A stretch of DNA of 64,000 bases from Pseudomonas sp. Gutcm_11s (GTDB lineage Bacteria; Pseudomonadota; Gammaproteobacteria; Pseudomonadales; Pseudomonadaceae), in NCBI RefSeq assembly GCF_028649395.1, contig NZ_JAQSUW010000013.1, positions 62,001-126,000 on the forward strand, in the 5' to 3' direction. Within the stretch, counting starts at the first letter, position 1. Each line of letters opens with the position of its first letter. A model generated the notes under the pieces. That model was not told the DNA's origin. It was given only the letters and a program-made list of their open reading frames with translations, and did no database searches. The position numbers and the translations under genes were made by a program. This document shows positions 3,622 through 47,015 of this stretch, piece by piece.

Positions 3622-6372
3622 CTAATCGGTCACGTGGGCCTGCGCGAGCAGGTAGCGATCAAGCATGGCGTAGAGCTGCTGGCAGTCCAGCGGCTTGCCG
3701 AGGAAGTCGTCCATGCCGGCGGCCAGGCCCTGGTCACGGTGCTCGTCGAGGATATGCGCGGTCAGAGCGATTATCGGCACCGCCGGCAGCTGGCGGTTGT
3801 ACTCCAGCTTGCGGATCTGCCGGGTCGCCTCGAAGCCGTCCAGTTCCGGCATCTCGCAGTCCATCAGCACCAGCTGCACGGCGCCGGGATCACGGCGGTA
3901 CTCGGCGACCGCGGCGTTGCCGTCGGCCACCATCCGTACCGAATAGCCGCGCTTCTTGAGGAAGCCCTGGACCACCATCTGGTTCACCCGATTGTCTTCG
4001 GCCACCAGGATGCAGGGCGTGCTGCCGGCACGCTGCTCCAGCGCCGGCGGCACGGCGGGCGCCTCACTGCGCCGCTCGCTGTACAGCTCCAGCAGGGTGT
4101 CGCGCAGGCCGACCACCGAGAGCGGCAGCGGCTGGCCCAGCAGACGCAGGCCGCGGCCCTCGGGTAGCTGCTGGTATTGCTCCGGCGGGCTGAGGATCAG
4201 CACGCGCTGGCCGTGTTCCAGGTCTGGTCGCAGGCTGTCCAGCCAGTGCCCACTGCTGCCCGGCCAGGGCGCCATGAGCACCAGCAGCGGCGGGGCGGTG
4301 AAGTCTTCCAGGTAGTCACGCAGGCGTTCCGGGTCTTGGCAGCGCTGGGTGCGCATGCCCCAGCGGCCGAGCAGGTGACCGAGGCAGTCGAGGCCCTGGC
4401 CGTCCAGGGAGCAGAGCAGGGCGGTGCGGTTCTCCAGCAGCGCAGCCAGTTCATCGTGGTCTTCGACGGCGCGGCGCAGCGGCACGTCGAAGGCGAAGCG
4501 CGAGCCCTGTCCCGGGGTGCTCTGCACCTCGATGCGGCCGTCCATCATCTCCACCAGCTCCTTGCTGATGGCCAGGCCCAGGCCGCTGCCGCCATAGCGG
4601 CGGGTGGTGCTGGAGTCGCCCTGGGCGAAGGACTTGAACAGCTGGTGGAGGCTGTCGTGGTGAATGCCGATGCCACTGTCGCTGACCGCGAACACCAGGT
4701 GCAGGCCACCGTCGCTGTTGCTGCGCCGGCTGACTGACAGAGACACGTGGCCCTCCTGGGTGAACTTGAGGGAGTTGCCCAGCAGGTTCATCAGCACCTG
4801 CTTGAGCCGCGTCGGGTCGCCCTGGATGCGCCGTGGCACACCGCCCTCCAGGCAGACATACAGGCGCAGGCGCTTCTCCAGGGCCTGGGCGGTGAACAGC
4901 GCAAGGGTCTCGGAGATCATCTGCTCCAGGTCGAACTCGATTTCCTCCAGGCTCAGCTTGCCGGACTCGATGCGCGCGTAATCGAGGATGTCGTTGATCA
5001 CCGACATCAGCGAACGGCCCGAGCTGCTGATGGTATCCACGTAGAAGCGTTGGTTGCGGTCCAGCGGCGTCTCGCGCAGCAGCTGCAGCATGCCCAGAAC
5101 GCCGTTCAGCGGGGTACGGATCTCGTGGCTCATCTTGGCCAGGAAGCGGCTCTTGGCCTGGTTCTCGTACTCGGCCTGCTCGGCGGCCTGGCGCGAGCGG
5201 AAGCCCTCGTCCTTGAGCAGGTTGATGCGGTCGGCCAGGCCGATGGACAGGCTCAGCAGCTCGATGGTCACGCCGACCTTGACCACCGCCGAGCCGTAGA
5301 TGCCGAAGATCTCGATGCCCAGCGAACCACTGGTGACCAGGATGAACGCCACCAGCAGCACGCTCCAGGCCAGCACATAGTAGGAGCCGTGGCGCACGCC
5401 GCGGCGCCAGGCATAGGCGCCGGTGAGCAGTAGGATCAGCGAGACCAGCAACACGGAAACGCTGGCCAGGATGTTCCAGGCGGCCAGGCCGATCAGCGGC
5501 ACCGACAGCAGGCAGCCGACGATGACCAGCATCAGCAGGCGCAGGCCCTTGTCCAGGCGCGGGAAGTGCTGCGGGATGTGCAGGAAGTCCCGGCTGAACT
5601 GGGCGGCGGTGAGGCAGTGCAGGAACATCAACACGTAGATGCTCACCGACTGTAGGCCCACGTGGTTGGGCAGCAACTTGAACAGCATGCCGTCGAAGCA
5701 GGCGGCGAACAGGCCGACGTTGACGTTGTACACCAGGTACCAGAAGTAGGCGCGCTCGCGCAGCGAGATGAACAGGAACAGGTTGTAGATGAACATCGCG
5801 AACAGCACGCCGTAGAAGGCGCCGTTGATGCCCATCAGGTTTTCCTGGGCCGCCGCGCTGGCGCCATGGGTGCTGAAGAACAGGGGAACGAAGATGGTGC
5901 TGGTGCTTTGCACCCGGATCAGCAGGGTGTTGCTGCCATGCGGCAGGTCCATCGGGAACCAGAAGTGGCGCACCTGCACTGGGCGCTGGGCGAAGGCGTA
6001 GCTGTCCCCGCTGTGCTGGTGCTGCAGGCGCCCATCGCCGTCCTGCAGGTAGACATCGATCTGGTCGAGCAGGGCGTAGTTGACTTCCAGGTAGCCGGAC
6101 AGCGGTTGCGGGCGGCTGTTGACCAGGCGCACCTTGAACCACCAGACCGAATCGTTCTTGCCCAGGTTGGCGTGGTCGCCATGCACCTGTTCGAAGGCGC
6201 TGTCCGGTAGGCGCTGCACGGCCTCGGCATCCAGCGTGCCGTCGCTGTCGCGGTAATAGCCCATGTAGGGAGCCAGCGACAGGCGCAGGTCATCCCGGTC
6301 CAGGGGGGCAGGGGCGAGCGCCCACAGTTGTCCACTCAGGCAGAGCAGCAGTACGGCCAGACACAAGCGCAT
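3622..6372 (-). CDS. Hybrid sensor histidine kinase/response regulator with 7TMR-DISM sensor
   Basis: The 916-residue protein has a signal peptide (about 1-18), a periplasmic 7TMR-DISM extracellular domain type 2 (about 35-170), seven predicted membrane helices (about 185-385), a short coiled coil, a HisKA domain with phosphoacceptor His416 ([11 protein letters not shown]), an HATPase_c domain ([16 protein letters not shown]), a degenerate insert (about 650-760) and a C-terminal receiver with Asp838 ([12 protein letters not shown]) and a KP motif. The layout resembles LadS- and RetS-type sensors of Pseudomonas, but with a single receiver. DISM domains are thought to sense small molecules or carbohydrates. 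It lies about 100 nt downstream of the NAGGN peptidase gene, so a role in osmotic or envelope sensing is possible but only inferred. GAGG precedes the ATG. Confidence 0.9.
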
Positions 6373-39204: not shown

Positions 39205-39856
39205 GCTGACGCTCTACGGCTACTGGCGCTCCAGCGCCGCCTACCGGGTACGCATTGCCTTGGGCCTCAAGGGCCTGGCCTACCGCCAGGTGCCGGTGCA
39301 CCTGGTCAAGGACGGTGGCCAGCAGCACAGTGCCGAGTACCAGGCGCTGAACCCCCAGGAGCTGCTGCCGCTGCTGGTGGACGAGCGCAACGGCGGGGCA
39401 CGCATCGCCCAGTCGCTGGCCATCCTCGAATACCTCGACGAAGTCTTCCCGGTGCCGGCGCTGCTGCCGGCCGAACCGATCCAGCGCGCCCAGGTGCGTG
39501 CGCTGGCGCTGCATATCGCCTGCGATATCCATCCGCTGAACAACCTGCGCGTGCTGCAGTACCTCAGCACCGAGCTGGGCGTCGACGACGAGGCGAAGAA
39601 CACCTGGTACCGGCACTGGGTAGAGAAGGGGCTGGCGGCGGTGGAGCAGGGGCTCGAAGGGTTCAAGGGCGGCTTGTCGCTGGGTAACCGGCCGGGATAT
39701 CTGGAAGCCTGTGTGATTCCGCAGCTGTACAACGCCCGGCGCTTTGCCTGCGCAATCGAAGGTTTGCCGCGGCTGCTGGAGATGGAGGATCGCTGCCTGG
39801 CGCTGGACGCCTTCAAGGCCGCCGCGCCTGAGGCGCAGCCTGACGCGCAGGGCTGA
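39194..39856 (+). CDS. maiA: Maleylacetoacetate isomerase
   Basis: From the ATG at 39194 the product is 220 residues, a zeta-class glutathione transferase. The N-terminus has YWRSSAAYRVRIAL, corresponding to the catalytic SSxxxRVRIAL motif, then NPQELLPLLV and a helical C-terminal domain. It isomerises maleylacetoacetate to fumarylacetoacetate with glutathione. GGAG is found within the end of fahA. It closes the operon; a perfect inverted repeat at 39964-39992 may end transcription. Confidence 0.94.
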   Translation: MSSELTLYGYWRSSAAYRVRIALGLKGLAYRQVPVHLVKDGGQQHSAEYQALNPQELLPLLVDERNGGARIAQSLAILEYLDEVFPVPALLPAEPIQRAQVRALALHIACDIHPLNNLRVLQYLSTELGVDDEAKNTWYRHWVEKGLAAVEQGLEGFKGGLSLGNRPGYLEACVIPQLYNARRFACAIEGLPRLLEMEDRCLALDAFKAAAPEAQPDAQG

Positions 39857-39963
39857 CTGCGCTGCGCGAGAGCGTCTGGGCAGATTATCTGGGGGTAGGC
39901 GCCGATCCGCAGGCACGAGCAAGCAACTCGTTGTCAGGTCGGAAGTGAGGGGACAGATCAGTG

Positions 39964-39992
39964 CAGAGGCCTGGTTTTTAATCAGGCCTCTG
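39964..39992. terminator. Perfect inverted repeat between convergent maiA and 40017-40409
   Basis: CAGAGGCCTG (39964-39973) and CAGGCCTCTG (39983-39992) enclose GTTTTTAAT. The stem is 10 bp with no mismatch. No long U-tract follows on either strand, but the location between convergent genes suits a bidirectional terminator. Confidence 0.5.
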
Positions 39993-40016
39993 TTAGCGGC
40001 AGGACGCCGAGGCTAT

Positions 40017-40409
40017 TTAGTTAGGAACCAGGTCGATGCTGCCGCAGTTGGAACCCTTGGTTGCGATCATATCCACCCGCCTGTCCCGGTTGATCGCGAC
40101 GCGCATTTCGCAGTTGGCCTGGTTGAACACGTCCCCCCAGTATTCCTGATGCACCAGCTGCCCATTCATGGGGCCGGTATAGGTGCCGAGGGCTTCGCGC
40201 GTGGTGTACGAGGTGTCGTAGCCATACACCAGTACGACCCACTGCCTGTCGGTCATTCCACCTATCTGTTGTGGCGCGCCGAAGTAGTCGATCACTTCGG
40301 ATACGGGGCGATCCTTCCAGTAGTTGCGGGCCAGGGTATCCGGGACGTTCATACCCGCGCAGCCGCTCAGCAGCAGGGTCGTCATTCCGAGCGCGATGAT
40401 CCTTTTCAT
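40017..40409 (-). CDS. Putative lipoprotein, unknown function
   Basis: The 130-residue protein begins MKRIIALGMTTLLLSGC, a typical lipoprotein signal with lipobox LSGC and Cys17. The mature part has a conserved-looking core (RNYWKDRPVSEVIDYFGAPQQ; RQWVVLVYGYDTS) resembling small outer-membrane-linked lipoproteins of the SmpA/BamE style in its FG.P pattern, though I cannot assign a family. Its ATG overlaps the previous gene's stop (ATGA), so the two are a coupled pair. GC is somewhat lower than in the flanking operons. Confidence 0.7.
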   Translation of the reverse strand: MKRIIALGMTTLLLSGCAGMNVPDTLARNYWKDRPVSEVIDYFGAPQQIGGMTDRQWVVLVYGYDTSYTTREALGTYTGPMNGQLVHQEYWGDVFNQANCEMRVAINRDRRVDMIATKGSNCGSIDLVPN

Positions 40410-41005
40410 TGCACGCTCTCCGTCGAACCGCCGGTTGCCGGCTGGGGCATCATGTCGAAGGCTTCATCGATCTTCTTCAGGATGGCCTCTTTGGCCAGTT
40501 CACGTCCTTGAGCGATGAAAATCGCGCCGGACTGTTCGTCCAAGGTCGAAACCTGCATCTTCCCAAGGTGGTGGTATGCACGGTTCGACGCTCGCTCACC
40601 TGGTTTGCAGACAAAGTCCCGGCTCTTGATCATCCAGTCTTCTGGTTTCTTGAGCCATTCGCCGTCTACATCCTTGCCGGACCAGGTGTTGCCCCAGTCG
40701 TTATGCACCTGAATGTTGGTGACGCGTGCCCTTTGCTTGGCACAGTCCACTTCGATATCGAGGAAACCGACCCAGGCTGAACCTCCCTCCCGACTTTCCG
40801 CCTGGAAAACGCCTGCCGTGCGAATTCCGCCAGGGCGACTGGCATTCCCGGCACGATCATCGATGTAGTAAATGTGGCGGTATCCAGACTCAGCCTCTTC
40901 CTGATGGACGATCCAGAAGTCGCCGGTAGGCGGGACATCCGCCTGCGCGGCAAAAGAAGTGCTTAGGAGCAAGGCAGGCAGTAAATGCCTGAGGGAAGGA
41001 CACAT
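40406..41005 (-). CDS. Secreted hypothetical protein
   Basis: The 199-residue protein has a signal peptide (cleavage near residue 22, after FAAQA) and two cysteines in the mature part (IEVDCAK, RDFVCKPG). The segment ASRPGGIRTAGVFQAES and a repeated W/G pattern suggest a beta-rich domain. No family is recognised. AAGGA precedes the ATG. It is upstream of and overlaps the lipoprotein gene, so the two envelope proteins likely act together. Confidence 0.7.
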   Translation of the reverse strand: MCPSLRHLLPALLLSTSFAAQADVPPTGDFWIVHQEEAESGYRHIYYIDDRAGNASRPGGIRTAGVFQAESREGGSAWVGFLDIEVDCAKQRARVTNIQVHNDWGNTWSGKDVDGEWLKKPEDWMIKSRDFVCKPGERASNRAYHHLGKMQVSTLDEQSGAIFIAQGRELAKEAILKKIDEAFDMMPQPATGGSTESVQ

Positions 41006-41127
41006 GGCGACAATCCTTTGCTGTTGAGACCATCGCAGGGCAAAAGCCCTACGCCAGAGAGGTGTCTGGAATCTAGCGATGGGGCTGGAAAGGGGTCAAG
41101 GCTTCTGTCCCGTTTCCGCCGATTCGG

Positions 41128-41226
41128 TCAGGTTTCGATCTTCCGATAGAGGTATTCGCAGCCAGAGCAGTCCTTGGTTGCCACCTTGAGCAGGTAGCCC
41201 GAACCGTCGGCCATGAAGAGGCTGTC
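41128..41226 (-). pseudogene. Remnant of an Lrp/AsnC-type gene (RAM domain fragment)
   Basis: Read on the minus strand, the frame contains MADGSGYLLKVATKDCSGCEY and ends in TGA at 41128. It aligns with MAGGSDYLLKVVAKDIADYE of the intact Lrp-type gene at 46548-47015. By eye, about 38 of 45 bases match over the best segment (41170-41214 against 46670-46714). No helix-turn-helix part remains. It is in the same orientation as the intact gene and lies at the left border of the accessory stretch. Confidence 0.6.
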
Positions 41227-41252
41227 GCTGGAGTTTGTGAAGGGTAGGGCGA

Positions 41253-41618
41253 TTAGGTTTCGAGCTTGAGCAATGCCTTGACCTGCTCGATAACCGACTC
41301 GATCCGAAAGGGTTTATCGAGCACCGCTGCGAACAGGTCGGAGCGAGCGGTACCCAGGTGAGCTTGCGCGCCGCTCATAAGAATCATGGGCGTGCTCTTG
41401 TGATCGGGATGCGCTCTTACCGCCTCGGCGAATTCTATGCCCGTCATGCCCGGCATCATGAAATCAGTGATGATCAGGTCGGGGCGCTCTCTATCCAGAA
41501 TCTCCAAGGCCCGCTTTCCGCTGCCAGCGGTAACCGTGAGTAAGCCTTCATCTTCCAGGGCGAAGCTCAGAATATTGGCGATCAGGTACTCGTCATCGAG
41601 TATCAGCACCGTTGTCAT
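41253..41618 (-). CDS. Receiver-only response regulator (CheY-like)
   Basis: The 121-residue protein is a single receiver domain with an intact phosphorylation site: acidic pair in LILDDEY (Asp7/Asp8), phosphoacceptor Asp in IITDFMMPGMTG (about residue 52), Ser in ILMSGAQ and Lys in LDKPFR. There is no output domain. It lies 83 nt downstream of the KaiC-like gene on the same strand and is probably cotranscribed. No histidine kinase is adjacent, so the phosphodonor is unknown. A functional link with the KaiC-like ATPase is inferred from position. Confidence 0.88.
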   Translation of the reverse strand: MTTVLILDDEYLIANILSFALEDEGLLTVTAGSGKRALEILDRERPDLIITDFMMPGMTGIEFAEAVRAHPDHKSTPMILMSGAQAHLGTARSDLFAAVLDKPFRIESVIEQVKALLKLET

Positions 41619-41701
41619 AGGCGATCCACATCACGGACGGCTCTAGCGACAGTTACCTGCTGCATAGATTCTGGCTTCGAATGGTGCGCCCAGGACATGG
41701 G

Positions 41702-43096
41702 TTAGGCCTTCTTCACGGATATTCCAGGGCCACCTATGACTACCTCAAGCAAAGAAGGGTCATAAGCGCTGTCTCTGACTTTAAGGATCGACAGCTGTCG
41801 TTGCAGTTCAGAGCCTTTCTCGCCAAAGCGCATCAGCAGCAGGTTGTCTGCAATGCTGGAGAGATCCGGCACGGGAGCATCGACGTGACTGCTGATCAGG
41901 CTCTGGGCTTCCCACGTCGCAACCACGGTCACGCCTTGCGCTCGCAGCTGCCCCATGAGCGCGGAGAAGATATCCAGCACGCGGGTTTTGTCCGCAGCCA
42001 CGCGAACCATGCCGCCCAGGCTGTCCAGGAACACGCGCTTGATCCGTTTGCGCTCGACAATGTCCAGCAGCTCATACCCTAGCCGGTCTATCAGCCCCTT
42101 GGTTGGAGCGCGCCATGCGATGTTGAGTGCGCCGCTACTCTCCATTGCCGGAAAGTCGAAGCCCAGCCCAGCTGCTTTCATGCGCAAGCGTTGCGGTGTT
42201 TCGTAAAACCCGAAGAACAGACCGGGCTCCTCGCGGGTGCACTCCCCGATGAACTGGATGCCGATGGAGGTTTTCCCCGTACCGGAAGGGCCGGCGATCA
42301 GGGTGGTCGAGGAACGTGCCAAACCTCCGCCAAGCACCGTATCCAGCGTCGGTATGCCACTGCTCAAGCGAGTGAAGTTGTCGGCGTCATCACCGGCGAG
42401 AGGGTTAAGCACGCTTTCCAGCCGTGGATAGACCACGATGCCGTTTTCGTTGATTTCGAACTCGTGTACTCCCGAGATCGCACCGCTGCCGCGAGTCTTG
42501 CGCAGTTTGATGCGGCGGACGGTCTGCGGGCCAATGGTCTCTTCGCCCATCTCGATCACACCATCGACCATGGTGTGTTCCGGGCTGCCATCCTCGAGCT
42601 GCGAGCTGGTCAGGAACAGCACCGTGCAGCCGGCAAAAGCGGCGTGGCCTTGGAGTTCGGAAATGAATTTTTTCGTGTCGATCGGCGACTCGGCCTTGGA
42701 GCGCGCATTGAGCAGACCGTCCAGAATCATGACCGTCGCCTTCTGCCGGCTGATCTCCCGGCGCAGCAGCTTCACCACCTCGTCCAGGCCGTCATTTTCC
42801 AGGGTGTCGAATGCGCTGACGAACTGGATTTTCTCGCCGATCTGCTCCTTGTCGAAGAAGCTCAGCGTCGAGAGGAACTGGAACAGCCGATCATGAGGCT
42901 CGGCTAACAGGGTGGCGAAAAGGACACGCCCGCCATCGCCGATGTGGTTGAAACCGAGCTGGTTGGCCAGGATGGTTTTCCCAGACCCTGGTCGACCTTG
43001 AATGATGTAGGAGGCGCCAGCAACAAAGCCGCCTTTCAATAGCGTGTCCAGGCCCTTGATGCCGCTTTTAAGGCGCGCTAGTTGATACAAGTCCAT
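41702..43096 (-). CDS. KaiC-like double-domain RecA-type ATPase
   Basis: From the ATG at 43096 the product is 464 residues with two KaiC/RecA domains: Walker A GRPGSGKT (34-41) and GPSGTGKT (269-276), Walker B-like VMILDGLL and VFLDSLGG. In the second domain, DLSSIADNLLLMRF aligns with the phosphorylation loop of cyanobacterial KaiC (S431-T432), giving Ser413-Ser414. The catalytic glutamate pair of the first domain appears altered (LLAEPHD). No KaiA or KaiB is nearby. An alternative ATG at 43120 adds 8 residues; the 43096 ATG has GGAGG unusually close. It pairs with the downstream receiver protein. It is a signalling ATPase by family, with unknown output. Confidence 0.85.
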   Translation of the reverse strand: MDLYQLARLKSGIKGLDTLLKGGFVAGASYIIQGRPGSGKTILANQLGFNHIGDGGRVLFATLLAEPHDRLFQFLSTLSFFDKEQIGEKIQFVSAFDTLENDGLDEVVKLLRREISRQKATVMILDGLLNARSKAESPIDTKKFISELQGHAAFAGCTVLFLTSSQLEDGSPEHTMVDGVIEMGEETIGPQTVRRIKLRKTRGSGAISGVHEFEINENGIVVYPRLESVLNPLAGDDADNFTRLSSGIPTLDTVLGGGLARSSTTLIAGPSGTGKTSIGIQFIGECTREEPGLFFGFYETPQRLRMKAAGLGFDFPAMESSGALNIAWRAPTKGLIDRLGYELLDIVERKRIKRVFLDSLGGMVRVAADKTRVLDIFSALMGQLRAQGVTVVATWEAQSLISSHVDAPVPDLSSIADNLLLMRFGEKGSELQRQLSILKVRDSAYDPSLLEVVIGGPGISVKKA

Positions 43097-43289
43097 GCCC
43101 TCCACTGATCGTGCCAGCATCTTATGAGATGCGCGCTGCTGCTTCCGCGATGCTGGGCATTGTCGCCTGTTTTGCGCAAAGCTCCTACCCACCCGGTTTG
43201 CATGGGGTTCGGCCATCGCTGATGGCCAGGATGTGCAAGGGCTATATGGATGTCCGATCCGGGCAGCTAGGAGAAGTTCGCAACCATTG

Positions 43290-43430
43290 GTAGACCTCTG
43301 GAGTCCGGCCGCTTGCAAGAAATTGCTGCAGAGGGAGTGGGTACTTTTGGCCGGTTGCAGCCGCCCGCCACGAGGTTTGCTGCCCAGCAAATTAACCTGC
43401 GCCCCGGCGCTCCCCTGCGCGGGGCTTTTT
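43290..43430 (+). ncRNA. Candidate small RNA ending at an orphan terminator
   Basis: The only direct evidence is an orphan hairpin plus U-tract and the absence of an upstream gene on this strand. The 5' end is a guess, and no known RNA family is recognised. It could instead be an attenuator for the lipoprotein gene starting at 43500. Confidence 0.25.
43401..43430 (+). terminator. Orphan intrinsic terminator
   Basis: GCCCCGGCGC (43401-43410) pairs, with one bulge, with GCGCGGGGC (43417-43425), followed by TTTTT (43426-43430). No plus-strand gene precedes it within 3 kb. Confidence 0.65.
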
Positions 43431-43499
43431 CTCTTGCACCCACTTCCCTAGGAATCACTAGCTCGTGGATGATGGATCGCCGCCGGGGAGGGCGTCTCT

Positions 43500-44392
43500 A
43501 TGAGCGTATTCAAAGTGATCTGCTTGGCAGTAGCCACGTCCGCGCTTACTGGATGTGCCGTAGGCATTGCCAACGAGGTGATGTTTGATGCATACGCCAG
43601 TACGGAGACACCTGAGAATTCAGGTGAGGCGCCTGCCAACTATCGCGGTAAGGATTGCGTAGCGCTGGCTGTAGAGCGGGGAGTGCAGGAACGGCTTGTT
43701 GCTGATAGTGATGACTACGTTAGAAAGCATGCTAACTGGGCTCTAGCGTCGATCCAGCAGGTCGAAAGAGAGAGTGGATGTATGCCTGGCATTACGTCAC
43801 TACAGGCGGCGATGGTTGACCAGGTTCTCAAGCACCCTGAGTCCTTGAAAGAGCTTGAATCTCAACTTCCGCCTGGTGGTCTGGAGTACATCAAAGCTAG
43901 AGGCAACCCCCTGCAAATGCCCCATCTGTGGCCGCCATCGCTCCTGTAACGACGCCCACTATTGTGGTTCAGACACCACAACCTCAACCGGTGCAGATTC
44001 CGAAGAAAGCTGAGGTAGTAGAGCCGGCAGCTCCGCTCACGAACGAATACTGTTATTTCTACTTCACCTCTGATGATTTCAGGGTGAAGCCTGATGTGTT
44101 TTCGCCGATTTTCCGTGACGCACAAATCAGCAAAACGGCAGCTAACCAGATCGCGGCTATCAAGCAGTATCAGCACAAGGTGAATCAGACTCAGCCAGAT
44201 ACGTGGAGAGAGTTCGATTTCAACCTTATCCCGTGTAACCCTGCGGCAGGGGTGTGCATGGGGGTTGCACACTCTCTATTCAAACCGAAGCAGGTAGCGA
44301 CTCTGGTTTGCTTCACCTCCGAAAGCGCGGCACAGGCGAAGCTGGATTACGACAGAGACCGTGATCCGCTGGCGATCACTATCGGCCGGTAA
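43500..44392 (+). pseudogene. Lipoprotein gene split by a frameshift in a C5 run
   Basis: The first frame (43500-43949, 149 aa) begins MSVFKVICLAVATSALTGC, a lipoprotein signal with lipobox LTGC. It ends shortly after a five-C run at 43907-43911. The next frame is open from 43901 to 44392. Adding one C to the run joins GLEYIKARGNP to PANAPSVAAIAPVTTPT, giving one protein of about 297 residues: lipoprotein signal, helical domain, Pro/Val/Thr-rich linker (IVVQTPQPQPVQIPKKAE) and a C-terminal domain with paired Cys. The smooth linker argues that the two frames were one gene. It may be a true mutation, a sequencing error or a phase-variable tract. The family is unknown. Confidence 0.7.
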
Positions 44393-44444
44393 CGGTCGAT
44401 TATGTTCTTCGAGCTGTTGCCACTTGCCGATAACCATCGCCAGC

Positions 44445-44476
44445 GAATGACTGCTATTGGCCGACTCCAGACGTTC
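44445..44476. repeat. Copy of a degenerate intergenic repeat (gc..ttggccga type)
   Basis: The core GACTGCTATTGGCCGACTC resembles the TTTCCGCTTGTGGCCG copies at 45400 and 46467 in its GCT-T-TGGCCG core. All three copies lie in the accessory stretch. The similarity is judged by eye and is weak for this copy. Confidence 0.35.
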
Positions 44477-44527
44477 GATCTCTCAGGCAAGTAGCCAACC
44501 CGAAGAAGTCGTCAGTCCAGCGCGCCG

Positions 44528-45283
44528 CTACAGGTGCATTTCAGCCAGCGCTCTACGCAATGGCGAGTCTGAAATCTGTATCGCCCCGTGGAAAGGGATG
44601 TCCATGTCGAGCACCAGATAGACGGATGCAGCAATCAATAGTGCCGATACGGTAAACATGCTTATTACCATTGGGTTGCGTGGGGCTCGATAGCCAAAGC
44701 TGGCGTAGATCAATGTCAGCCATGCCCCCAGCATGCCTATGAGTGGGAGAGGAATCGCTCCTTCGGACTGCTCGACAATTTTCCAGCGTTGCTCGATGAG
44801 CAAGCGATATTGCTGACGGAGCTCTTCAAGTAGAGTCTCCTGATAGCGACTCTCAGGATCAATGGCGGCCAGGGCCACACCGATATCATCCAGGTATTGG
44901 GTAGCTGGGCTTTTGCGGTGCTGGAGCGCCTCGTCTCCGCGATATGGGTTGGCGATGGCGTGCTCTACGTAGGCCACTAGATGAGCGCGGGTGTCTTCTG
45001 CTTTTTCTCCGTAGTTTTTCAACGTACGGTCGAAGATGATCAGACTGGTGGCGAAGGCATGCACGTTCGTATCGATGGCTTCGAAGGTGTTTTTGGCAGA
45101 GTTGATCATCAAGCCGAACACCAGCGAAGTCATAACCACAAAAATATTGGCAACCAGGCGAACCACCGTGTTGGTTTCTTCGTCTCGGTGACGAGCTGAT
45201 AGCTTGGGATACCAATGCATCATCAGCAGGGATGCTGACAACAGGCAGACGAAGATGCCTACTGCGATAAAGATTGATTCCAT
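44528..45283 (-). CDS. DUF4239 (bestrophin-like) membrane protein
   Basis: The 251-residue protein has two membrane helices at the N-terminus (about 4-22 and 43-63), a long cytoplasmic or periplasmic helical region (65-180) and two helices near the C-terminus (about 181-200 and 210-228). It ends with the family-typical LVLDMDIPFHGAIQISDSPLRRALAEM. This pattern is characteristic of DUF4239, sometimes called bestrophin-like, with unproven channel activity. AAAGGA precedes the ATG. The gene is in the lower-GC accessory stretch. Confidence 0.8.
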   Translation of the reverse strand: MESIFIAVGIFVCLLSASLLMMHWYPKLSARHRDEETNTVVRLVANIFVVMTSLVFGLMINSAKNTFEAIDTNVHAFATSLIIFDRTLKNYGEKAEDTRAHLVAYVEHAIANPYRGDEALQHRKSPATQYLDDIGVALAAIDPESRYQETLLEELRQQYRLLIEQRWKIVEQSEGAIPLPLIGMLGAWLTLIYASFGYRAPRNPMVISMFTVSALLIAASVYLVLDMDIPFHGAIQISDSPLRRALAEMHL

Positions 45284-45399
45284 ATGTCCTTTCTCAGCGC
45301 GCAGCCGATTGAACCCGCCAATGCCCTAACCTTACGCGGGCAGACATTCATTTTCTAATCTTTGACACTTCCTAGGCTCTTTACAACGGGCGTTTCGGA

Positions 45400-45415
45400 T
45401 TTCCGCTTGTGGCCG
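45400..45415. repeat. 16-nt direct repeat, copy 1
   Basis: TTTCCGCTTGTGGCCG occurs here and, exactly, at 46467-46482. Both copies are followed by a similar AGC-containing tail (GAAGCAGC against TTAGCGGC). It resembles a degenerate intergenic repeat found in many proteobacteria, which I recall but cannot confirm. Confidence 0.6.
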
Positions 45416-45442
45416 GAAGCAGCATCTTGCAAAGGTCAGCTA

Positions 45443-45473
45443 TCTGCCCTTCTGCCCTTCTGCCCTTCTGCCT
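45443..45473. repeat. Tandem 8-bp repeat TCTGCCCT, almost four copies
   Basis: Three perfect copies (45443-45466) are followed by a partial fourth (TCTGCC). It is not coding and could vary in copy number by slippage. Confidence 0.75.
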
Positions 45474-45593
45474 CGTGCCACTGCGTACGGCGAGTATGCC
45501 GCACGCTAGAAGCCTGGCGTGCGCATGTTGGCGGGGACGTCTCGCCTGAGGTACTCCTGCCAGCTCAAGGTCTGGCAGGGGTGATACACCAGA

Positions 45594-46190
45594 CTACAAA
45601 TTCCAGAACTCAGATGACGGGAAGTCATCGATTGAGTCTTCAAGGAAGTCATCATCATCCTCGATCTCTTCCAGGCGCATTGAGAACGATGACGGCACGA
45701 GTTGCCAGCGCTGCTCTCTGAACTTCACCTCGAAATTCAGAATTGCAGTGAACCACCGGAACTGCTGTGCGAACTGCGGGGTGTAGCCCACCTGCTCGAT
45801 GCAGGTTAACTCGGCTTCGCCAGAGGCGAACAGAAGCCCTTTCTCCTCGTCATACCGGCTTTGCACGAAAAGCCCGCCCATGTGAAACCTGATATCTGAC
45901 GTTTTGGGTGCCAGTTCGTCCCGAAGGGCCAGCTGCGTCACGTGCTCATCCAGCTCCTTGGCTACGCCCGTGAGAGAAACCACATCCTCAAACCTCTCAA
46001 CACCGAAGACGAAGCGAAGCAGGCGCGCGTCGTCCGGGCGTCGCTGACCAACACTTTGAAGGTCGTGGTAACTGGCGAAGCCAGCAATAAGCGATAGCTG
46101 CTCTCGTGTCTCTGAAAGCTGTCGACCGCGTAGTTGCGCAGTGGCTTTGGAGAGAGATTTGAAAACGTTCAGCGCGGAAAAAGTGGACAT
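45594..46190 (-). CDS. Hypothetical protein, accessory
   Basis: The 198-residue acidic protein has no signal peptide or membrane helix. The N-terminus (RGRQLSETREQLSLIAGFASYHDLQ) resembles short helical modules seen at the start of several uncharacterised proteins. The C-terminus is strongly acidic (EDDDDFLEDSIDDFPSSEF). GAGGA precedes the ATG. Base composition is lower in GC than the core genes. No family or function is recognised. Confidence 0.65.
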   Translation of the reverse strand: MSTFSALNVFKSLSKATAQLRGRQLSETREQLSLIAGFASYHDLQSVGQRRPDDARLLRFVFGVERFEDVVSLTGVAKELDEHVTQLALRDELAPKTSDIRFHMGGLFVQSRYDEEKGLLFASGEAELTCIEQVGYTPQFAQQFRWFTAILNFEVKFREQRWQLVPSSFSMRLEEIEDDDDFLEDSIDDFPSSEFWNL

Positions 46191-46547
46191 GACATTCCTC
46201 GTGACATGGACGCGATGACCGATTGCCTGTTCACCGGACTGTCCATGATGGGATTGCCATGGTTCTTCGGAAAGGTGGGGTAAAACGATGGGCTCTTGCT
46301 TCGCGTAACAGGCACCAGGCGACCATCACCGCCCTGAAGCGAAAGATATCCAAGCGGATGGGCTAAGGCAAGATCAGCGATCTTTCTGCGCCAGGCTCAG
46401 ATTGCGGGATGAGCCGAATGGAAATTTGCTAAGCCGCACCACGAGTCGAAATTAATACGAAGTGGGTTTCCGCTTGTGGCCGTTAGCGGCCATCGGCAGT
46501 AACGAGAACAGGCCTCAGAAGTCTGGTTTTCCGGGGCGTTTGCATGA
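46191..46547. other. Intergenic region at right border of accessory stretch
   Basis: There is no supported gene. It holds the second copy of the 16-nt repeat and two short open fragments on the plus strand (46206-46283 and about 46290-46370) that may be debris of an older gene. No inverted repeats typical of an insertion-sequence end were seen. Confidence 0.5.
46467..46482. repeat. 16-nt direct repeat, copy 2
   Basis: Exact match to 45400-45415, 1067 bp away, in the same orientation. It lies 66 nt from the end of the Lrp-type gene. Confidence 0.6.
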
Positions 46548-47015
46548 TCAATCCAGCGGCAATTCCGTAGTCCTCTTCACCTCGCTCATTGCGATGTGCG
46601 AGTGCGCCTCGTGCACATGCGGGCGCTGCAGCAGGTGGTCGCGCAGGAAGCGTTCGTAGTCGGCGATGTCCTTGGCCACCACCTTGAGCAGGTAGTCTGA
46701 GCCGCCGGCCATGCTGTGGCATTCCAGCACCTGCGGGTAGCCGACCACGGCCTGCTCGAACTCTTCTAGGTTGGTGCGGCCGTGGGCCGACAGTTTGATG
46801 TCGACGAATACGGTGATGCCCAGGCCGAGCTTCTTCGGGTTGAGCAGGGCGACCTTGCGCTCGATCAGCCCTTCTTCCTGCATGCGATGGATGCGCCGCC
46901 AGCAGGGCGATTGCGACAGCTCCACCTTCTCGGCGATTTCGGCGGCCGAGAGGTCGGCGTTGTGCTGCAGCAGGCGAAGGATGCGGCGGTCGATGGAGCT
47001 CAGCTTTTCCTGCAT
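46548..47015 (-). CDS. Lrp/AsnC family transcriptional regulator
   Basis: The 155-residue protein has an N-terminal AsnC-type helix-turn-helix (about 5-60; LDRRILRLLQ-like start, AEIAEKVELSQSPCWRRIHRMQEEGLI) and a C-terminal RAM ligand domain (about 68-145; VLECHSMAGGSDYLLKVVAKDIADYERFL). It is divergent from the indolepyruvate oxidoreductase gene, which it probably controls in response to an amino acid; the aromatic setting suggests Phe, Tyr or Trp. A decayed relative of this gene sits at 41128-41226. Confidence 0.9.
   Translation of the reverse strand: MQEKLSSIDRRILRLLQHNADLSAAEIAEKVELSQSPCWRRIHRMQEEGLIERKVALLNPKKLGLGITVFVDIKLSAHGRTNLEEFEQAVVGYPQVLECHSMAGGSDYLLKVVAKDIADYERFLRDHLLQRPHVHEAHSHIAMSEVKRTTELPLD

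Follow-up and report, generated by a model that had tools for sequence, protein, structure and literature searches.

KaiC-like proteins encoded without KaiA and KaiB are common in bacteria, and we know of no mechanism assigned to them. Based on gene context, De Luca et al. (2011; PMC3164672) sorted kaiC genes into three groups; according to the accessible part of that paper, a kaiC of the third group is frequently followed by a receiver gene, and PSEEN2280 of a Pseudomonas was named as a member with the SS profile. Pseudomonas KaiC-like proteins were also the subject of Terrettaz et al. (2023), as cited in the accessible part of PMC11832031.

In this study, we analyzed a kaiC-receiver pair within a 64,000-nucleotide stretch (the window) of contig NZ_JAQSUW010000013.1 of Pseudomonas sp. 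Gutcm_11s. The pair shows the third context, in that kaiB is lacking and a receiver-only gene stands behind kaiC. The arrangement itself, with a Pseudomonas example of the SS profile, had already been pointed out in 2011 in the portion of the paper cited above; new here are the counts that show how strict the linkage is, the PAS kinase as an ancestral partner, the splitting of the operon, and the substitution of the catalytic Glu.

The gene pair, its linkage, and its island

The pair and its surroundings comprise the following features.

41702–43096, minus strand: kaiC-like gene, 464 aa, with two RecA/KaiC domains (CI, ~5–225; CII, ~240–464)
43120, minus strand: alternative upstream ATG of the kaiC-like gene, giving 472 aa
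43097–43110, minus strand: Shine-Dalgarno sequence GGAGG read in the sequence, preceding the ATG at 43096
41619–41701, minus strand: 83-bp gap between the kaiC-like gene and the receiver gene
41253–41618, minus strand: gene of a stand-alone, phosphorylatable receiver (REC), 121 aa, with D8, D9, D52, S82, and K102
39847–46531: variable island with the pair inside, GC ~53–60% as against 63–68% outside

With GGAGG in front of it, the ATG at 43096 is probably the true start, and the Ser-Ser pair that aligned to S431/T432 of KaiC is numbered S413/S414 from this codon (S421/S422 from the ATG at 43120). The KaiC-like protein matched Pfam KaiC (3.3e-61) in two stretches (PF06745 twice) and carries the Walker A motifs GRPGSGKT and GPSGTGKT together with a Walker B Asp in both domains, which places it in the two-domain KaiC superfamily. 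The receiver contains PF00072 (2.7e-20) as its sole domain and no output domain, and with its acidic pair, Asp, Ser/Thr, and Lys it is a single-domain response regulator whose phosphorylation residues D8, D9, D52, S82, and K102 were conserved in 86/86 cases. These assignments bear out an earlier note on this DNA, made from the letters alone, which had described a two-domain KaiC homologue with both P-loops and a Ser-Ser pair at the KaiC phosphosite, encoded directly upstream of an output-less, phosphorylatable receiver; the two genes indeed lie on the same strand in the order kaiC then REC, and the numbering S413/S414 was correct for the start at 43096.

Close orthologues were found in 156 of the 398 Pseudomonas species sampled. 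The receiver gene lay directly downstream on the same strand in all 84 sampled orthologues of more than 55% identity (a non-random sample of Pseudomonas loci that combined the first 16 relatives and the best matches with 40 more spaced along the list), and these pairs occupied many different chromosomal neighbourhoods. Relatives 34–59% identical in KaiC were carried on plasmids of Roseomonas, Rhizobium, Sinorhizobium, Sphingobium, Novosphingobium, Azospirillum, Paraburkholderia, Cupriavidus, and Variovorax, among others, and a receiver lay directly downstream of kaiC on the same strand in 23/23 of the alpha- and betaproteobacterial plasmid stretches read, two of these receivers (L198 and L218) being taken from annotation only. 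A distant gammaproteobacterium (G075, 38–42% identity) likewise had a receiver directly downstream of both of its kaiC copies, L177 and L178. Linkage was thus 100% across three proteobacterial classes and many insertion sites, with the motifs intact. These observations showed that the receiver and KaiC never separate; the two genes form a mobile KaiC-receiver cassette that belongs to a family of proteobacterial KaiC proteins. Since a receiver adjoined kaiC in all loci read, the phylogenetic profile that the earlier note had proposed found the genes co-conserved and excluded the contrary outcome, and the compact signalling unit postulated there is conserved (84/84 and 23/23) without KaiA or KaiB.

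The 83-bp gap in the window compares with 7–30 bp in most of the relatives read, and a gap of ~80 bp also occurs in L038. A genome-contig search with the single KaiC-like protein returned only Pseudomonas sp. ML96, whose contig NZ_JPMY01000034.1 encodes a KaiC of 92% identity; in this sister, a GGDEF protein gene on the opposite strand adjoins and faces the pair (L185:8038–9294). On a conjugative plasmid of Cupriavidus pauculus, kaiC and the receiver are followed by a tyrosine recombinase gene (L214:3501–6546), in accord with mobility of the cassette. At one locus (L052, G034:C1:3788781–3799746) the kaiC of this family is in pieces lying in different frames, and the receiver behind it is intact.

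The 6.7-kb stretch at 39847–46531 was missing from the same site in ML96, G013, and G767, where other low-GC genes were found. Because the pair is carried by a variable island of low GC that these relatives lack at that site, and because it belongs to a kinase-less clade (see below), it is a horizontally acquired unit of that clade in a lineage whose native operon most likely lost its kaiC. The site, with a maleylacetoacetate-isomerase-like gene on one side and an Lrp-type regulator on the other, is an integration hot spot whose cargo differs in each of the three relatives; in ML96 the cargo is a 555-aa P-loop protein (GC3 0.41, L234:1813–3480). The island also holds a bestrophin-like membrane protein (PF14023, 44528–45283) and two overlapping plus-strand frames at 43500–44392, a lipoprotein-like start and its continuation in another frame, which may be one broken gene.

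A 68-nt direct repeat (76% identical) was detected at 41155–41222 and 46653–46720, reflecting an Lrp/AsnC-type gene fragment just downstream of the receiver and the intact Lrp/AsnC-type gene at 46548–47015. Rearrangement by visible repeats was set aside, this fragment repeat and a short 27-nt pair being the only repeats found; no inverted repeats were found in the stretch, and a promoter and terminator scan gave results near chance. A defence function was likewise rejected, PADLOC giving a short P-loop match (mad8) for KaiC only and nothing for the receiver or the island neighbours, as was a phage origin, for which none of 50,697 phage records gave a match at E 1e-20.

The PAS histidine kinase and its orphan copy

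The search for co-occurring kinases suggested by the earlier note was productive: a cytoplasmic PAS-HisKA-HATPase kinase of ~380 aa was encoded just upstream of kaiC, on the same strand, in 36 of the 84 Pseudomonas loci. On a KaiC tree of 87 rows rooted with the distant pair L177/L178, the kinase-bearing loci were basal and paraphyletic, and the window KaiC fell inside a kinase-less clade of 39 rows (support 98/89). For these reasons loss of the kinase is likelier than gain; the tree showed, at the level of sequence comparison, that the ancestral Pseudomonas operon consisted of the PAS-histidine kinase, KaiC, and the receiver, the kinase having been lost from the window's clade. Divergence was correlated between KaiC and REC (r 0.81), KaiC and the kinase (0.85), and REC and the kinase (0.69), as against permutation maxima of 0.13, 0.16, and 0.21, respectively, these correlations including shared phylogeny.

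Three loci of the kinase-less clade, L125, L135, and L136, carried a different PAS kinase (34–43% identity) in this position, and kinases of varying architecture and orientation flanked several of the plasmid kaiC copies. The kinase looks like a replaceable partner and the receiver like the fixed one. In addition, since more than half of the Pseudomonas loci have no adjacent kinase, and since some of those genomes, such as G004 and G020, carry KaiC-REC yet no close homologue of that PAS kinase, another kinase, or none, can serve.

No histidine kinase was found close to the window pair, which is not part of a two-component operon with a PAS-HisKA-HATPase kinase; the histidine kinase identified in the window is a hybrid kinase at 3622–6372. 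The earlier remark that no kinase lies nearby therefore holds locally but not for the system, in which the PAS kinase is the ancestral third gene and has left an orphan copy in this genome, and on the same grounds the "unknown input" does not stand as a property of the system.

This genome contains one close relative of the operon PAS kinase (G000:C16:27308–28387, 57% identical; next best 38%). Seven bp behind it lies a receiver gene (L076:5852–6217) whose product is 52% identical to the window receiver, so that the locus reads as follows.

L076:5852–7607 (G000:C16): histidine kinase-receiver operon without kaiC; syntenic relatives have kaiC between the two

The orphan kinase and its receiver both grouped with the full operons of G013, G028, and G767, where kinase, kaiC, and receiver stand in the same TonB-receptor neighbourhood as the orphan genes; from this grouping, kaiC was most likely deleted from between the two genes of the orphan locus while both other frames were kept. 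This kinase-receiver relic also occurs in the sister ML96 (85%), which has a kaiC-receiver pair of its own at another site, and thus a natural kaiC deletion in a kinase-receiver operon is most likely common to the two genomes. As the operon relic survives elsewhere in the genome, the kinase exists there, and we infer that it could serve the acquired window receiver.

Because the usual neighbouring sensor kinase is encoded elsewhere in the genome, the two genes probably constitute a two-component signalling module and not a clock. We lean toward a KaiB-free KaiC-REC cassette in which the PAS kinase phosphorylates the receiver and a KaiC hexamer modulates the process, probably with no autokinase clock. 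Gene linkage, the ancestral kinase, and motif conservation underlie this scheme, whereas its interactions, its direction of control, and its output are all proposed. The input would be sensed by the PAS domain of the kinase, and the kinase, here the orphan or a substitute, would phosphorylate Asp52 of the receiver. The KaiC-like protein would form an ATP-loaded hexamer that binds the receiver and/or the kinase, and the ring would tune the phosphorylation state of the receiver by ATP/ADP. Since the receiver has no output domain, it would presumably act through protein contact. The orphan kinase, however, has a receiver of its own and may not serve the window receiver.

The strongest rival, which we rate as somewhat unlikely, reverses the direction of control: the phosphorylated receiver would bind the KaiC hexamer and switch its ATPase activity or its interaction with DNA or with further proteins, the receiver being the input and KaiC the output. 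It agrees with a receiver that lacks an output domain and always accompanies kaiC, the kinase being the exchangeable partner, and with the KaiC-REC fusions of some archaea (PMC5847659). However, the kinase-receiver relic without kaiC has intact frames in two species, and a kinase-receiver pair is thus retainable without an adjacent KaiC.

Another alternative, unlikely in our judgement, is that the window pair works without the orphan PAS kinase, its receiver being charged by one of the cell's many other kinases and the orphan genes forming a separate, closed two-component system. The horizontal entry of a KaiC and REC of the kinase-less clade, the receiver standing 7 bp downstream of the orphan kinase, the KaiC-REC pairs carried without that kinase by genomes such as G004 and G020, and the other PAS kinases that occupy the position upstream of kaiC in L125, L135, and L136 would all be expected in this case. 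The sister ML96, by contrast, also keeps both kaiC-REC and the orphan kinase-receiver pair, which fits retention as a set, albeit in a single lineage.

Clock residues and Kai partners of the KaiC-like protein

The AlphaFold model of the KaiC-like protein (pLDDT 86.5), for which the alignment contained whole-genome loci only, matched residues 14–482 of KaiC with its own residues 2–464 (Z ~38, ~450 residues). Against cyanobacterial and Rhodobacter KaiC, it gave Z values of 31–40 and rmsd values of 2.6–3.9 Å over ~400–450 residues at 21–26% identity. Since the model reaches no further than KaiC residue 482, it lacks the KaiA-binding tail. The scores against TIGR02655 (circadian clock KaiC; 119.9 bits, curated cut-off 546.25) and PRK09302 (192.8, cut-off 408) were both below the cut-offs.

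In KaiC, S431/T432 are activated for phosphoryl transfer by E318 acting as a base, and E318A KaiC lost phosphoryl transfer and was arrhythmic (PMC2777353). The E318-equivalent in CII was Tyr in 81/85 and His in 4/85 (Y298 in the window, 464-aa numbering), and the Mg-binding E319-equivalent was Glu in 85/85. In CI, the tandem Glu was reduced to one (L-L-A/S-E, 84/84), and the E77 position was non-Glu under either alignment. The hydroxyl residues at S431/T432 were kept in 83/85 (Ser413) and 72/85 (Ser414), both being present in the window and the Ser414-equivalent being Gly or Cys in 13/85; no Thr or Ser was found at the place aligned with T426. In addition, K439 and R441 were invariant and both P-loops were intact. 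ATP binding thus looks intact, so that nucleotide-dependent ring states remain possible. Judging from these residues, KaiC-style autophosphorylation is not expected, and since the catalytic glutamates are replaced in both domains, the protein is probably not an autokinase clock.

Neither KaiA nor KaiB was found in the 4.73-Mb genome, the control genome of S. elongatus being positive for both, and the absence reported in the earlier note thus extends to the whole genome. Of 20 genomes bearing the family, 18 lacked KaiB, and the remaining two had it on a different contig from kaiC.

A KaiC-type timer is therefore unlikely. A timing module had been raised earlier as a possibility; in this reading, KaiC would autophosphorylate on Ser413/Ser414 and, as an hourglass or clock, signal to the receiver, which is quite improbable on present evidence. 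The two intact P-loops, the Ser-Ser pair at the S431/T432 position with its well-kept first Ser, and the in vivo phosphorylation of a Methylobacterium extorquens KaiC-like protein that has one such Ser (according to the accessible part of PMC8069551) accord with it, but it is weakened by Tyr or His at E318 in all 85 cases, the residue at which E318A abolishes phosphoryl transfer (PMC2777353), by loss of the second Ser in 13/85, by the missing T426 and KaiA-binding tail, and by the lack of KaiA and KaiB. Finally, chance adjacency or decay of an island gene with no joint function can be dismissed, since, despite the variable low-GC island and the broken kaiC of L052 with its intact REC, it is refuted by a linkage that held in 100% of cases, with intact motifs, at many insertion sites in three proteobacterial classes.

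Returning to the favoured cassette, we tentatively entertain a more specific form, in which a KaiA/KaiB-free, non-autokinase KaiC would serve as a hexameric ATP/ADP gauge gating phosphotransfer from the PAS kinase to the output-less receiver. Its wiring would be modular, operons being split and re-paired as apparently happened here, with kaiC deleted from one operon and a kaiC-receiver pair acquired on an island. If true, this would add to the clock and the hourglass a third mode of wiring KaiC-type rings into two-component signalling.

Comparison with known systems

The present results give such a KaiC a nameable partner set, with an obligate receiver and a PAS kinase as the ancestral second partner, in a system spread over 156 of the 398 sampled Pseudomonas species and over rhizobial, sphingomonad, and Burkholderiales plasmids. 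The natural gene sets HK-KaiC-REC, KaiC-REC, and HK-REC are ready-made comparisons, and the Tyr replacing the autokinase Glu is a single residue that bears on whether such KaiCs are kinases at all.

With cyanobacterial KaiABC and its SasA-RpaA output, the window system shares the double-domain KaiC fold (Z ~38) and histidine kinase and receiver partners. In contrast, the window KaiC is only 21–24% identical, has E318 replaced and the tail missing, and operates without KaiA and KaiB, and the window receiver, unlike the SasA-RpaA output, has no DNA-binding domain. The KaiBC-histidine kinase operons of Rhodobacter and Rhodopseudomonas (KaiC-RS, 8fwi/8dba) likewise have a Ser-Ser site, S413/S414 in KaiC-RS too, beside a kinase; they possess KaiB and a C-terminal coiled coil, whereas the window system has neither but has an obligate receiver.

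The "dark-blue" group, in which kaiC is followed by a specific Nt_HK (Ramlibacter Rta_04330/04340), shares a kaiC-kinase operon without KaiB. There, however, the kinase comes after kaiC and the site is mostly SY/TY, as in another Pseudomonas family, whereas here the kinase comes before kaiC and the receiver after it. The kaiC2-kaiR2 cluster of Methylobacterium extorquens AM1, as described in the accessible part of a review (PMC8069551), is a two-gene kaiC cluster without kaiB, with a phosphorylated Ser and a stress phenotype; being likened by description, it offers a lead to kinship with the window pair.

Two more Pseudomonas KaiC families, ~30% identical and with other neighbours, were encountered (L053–L069), with T-Y/S-Y or T-A at the phosphosite. 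As only the present one of the three Pseudomonas families has the SS profile, PSEEN2280, matched by the profile alone as given in the available portion of its source, very probably belongs to it. The closest described relative is accordingly the third ("black") group of De Luca et al. (2011), which likewise consists of kaiC without kaiB, frequently followed by a receiver; relative to the accessible part of that paper (PMC3164672), where they are not reported, the obligate receiver, the ancestral upstream PAS kinase, and the lost catalytic Glu are findings of this study.
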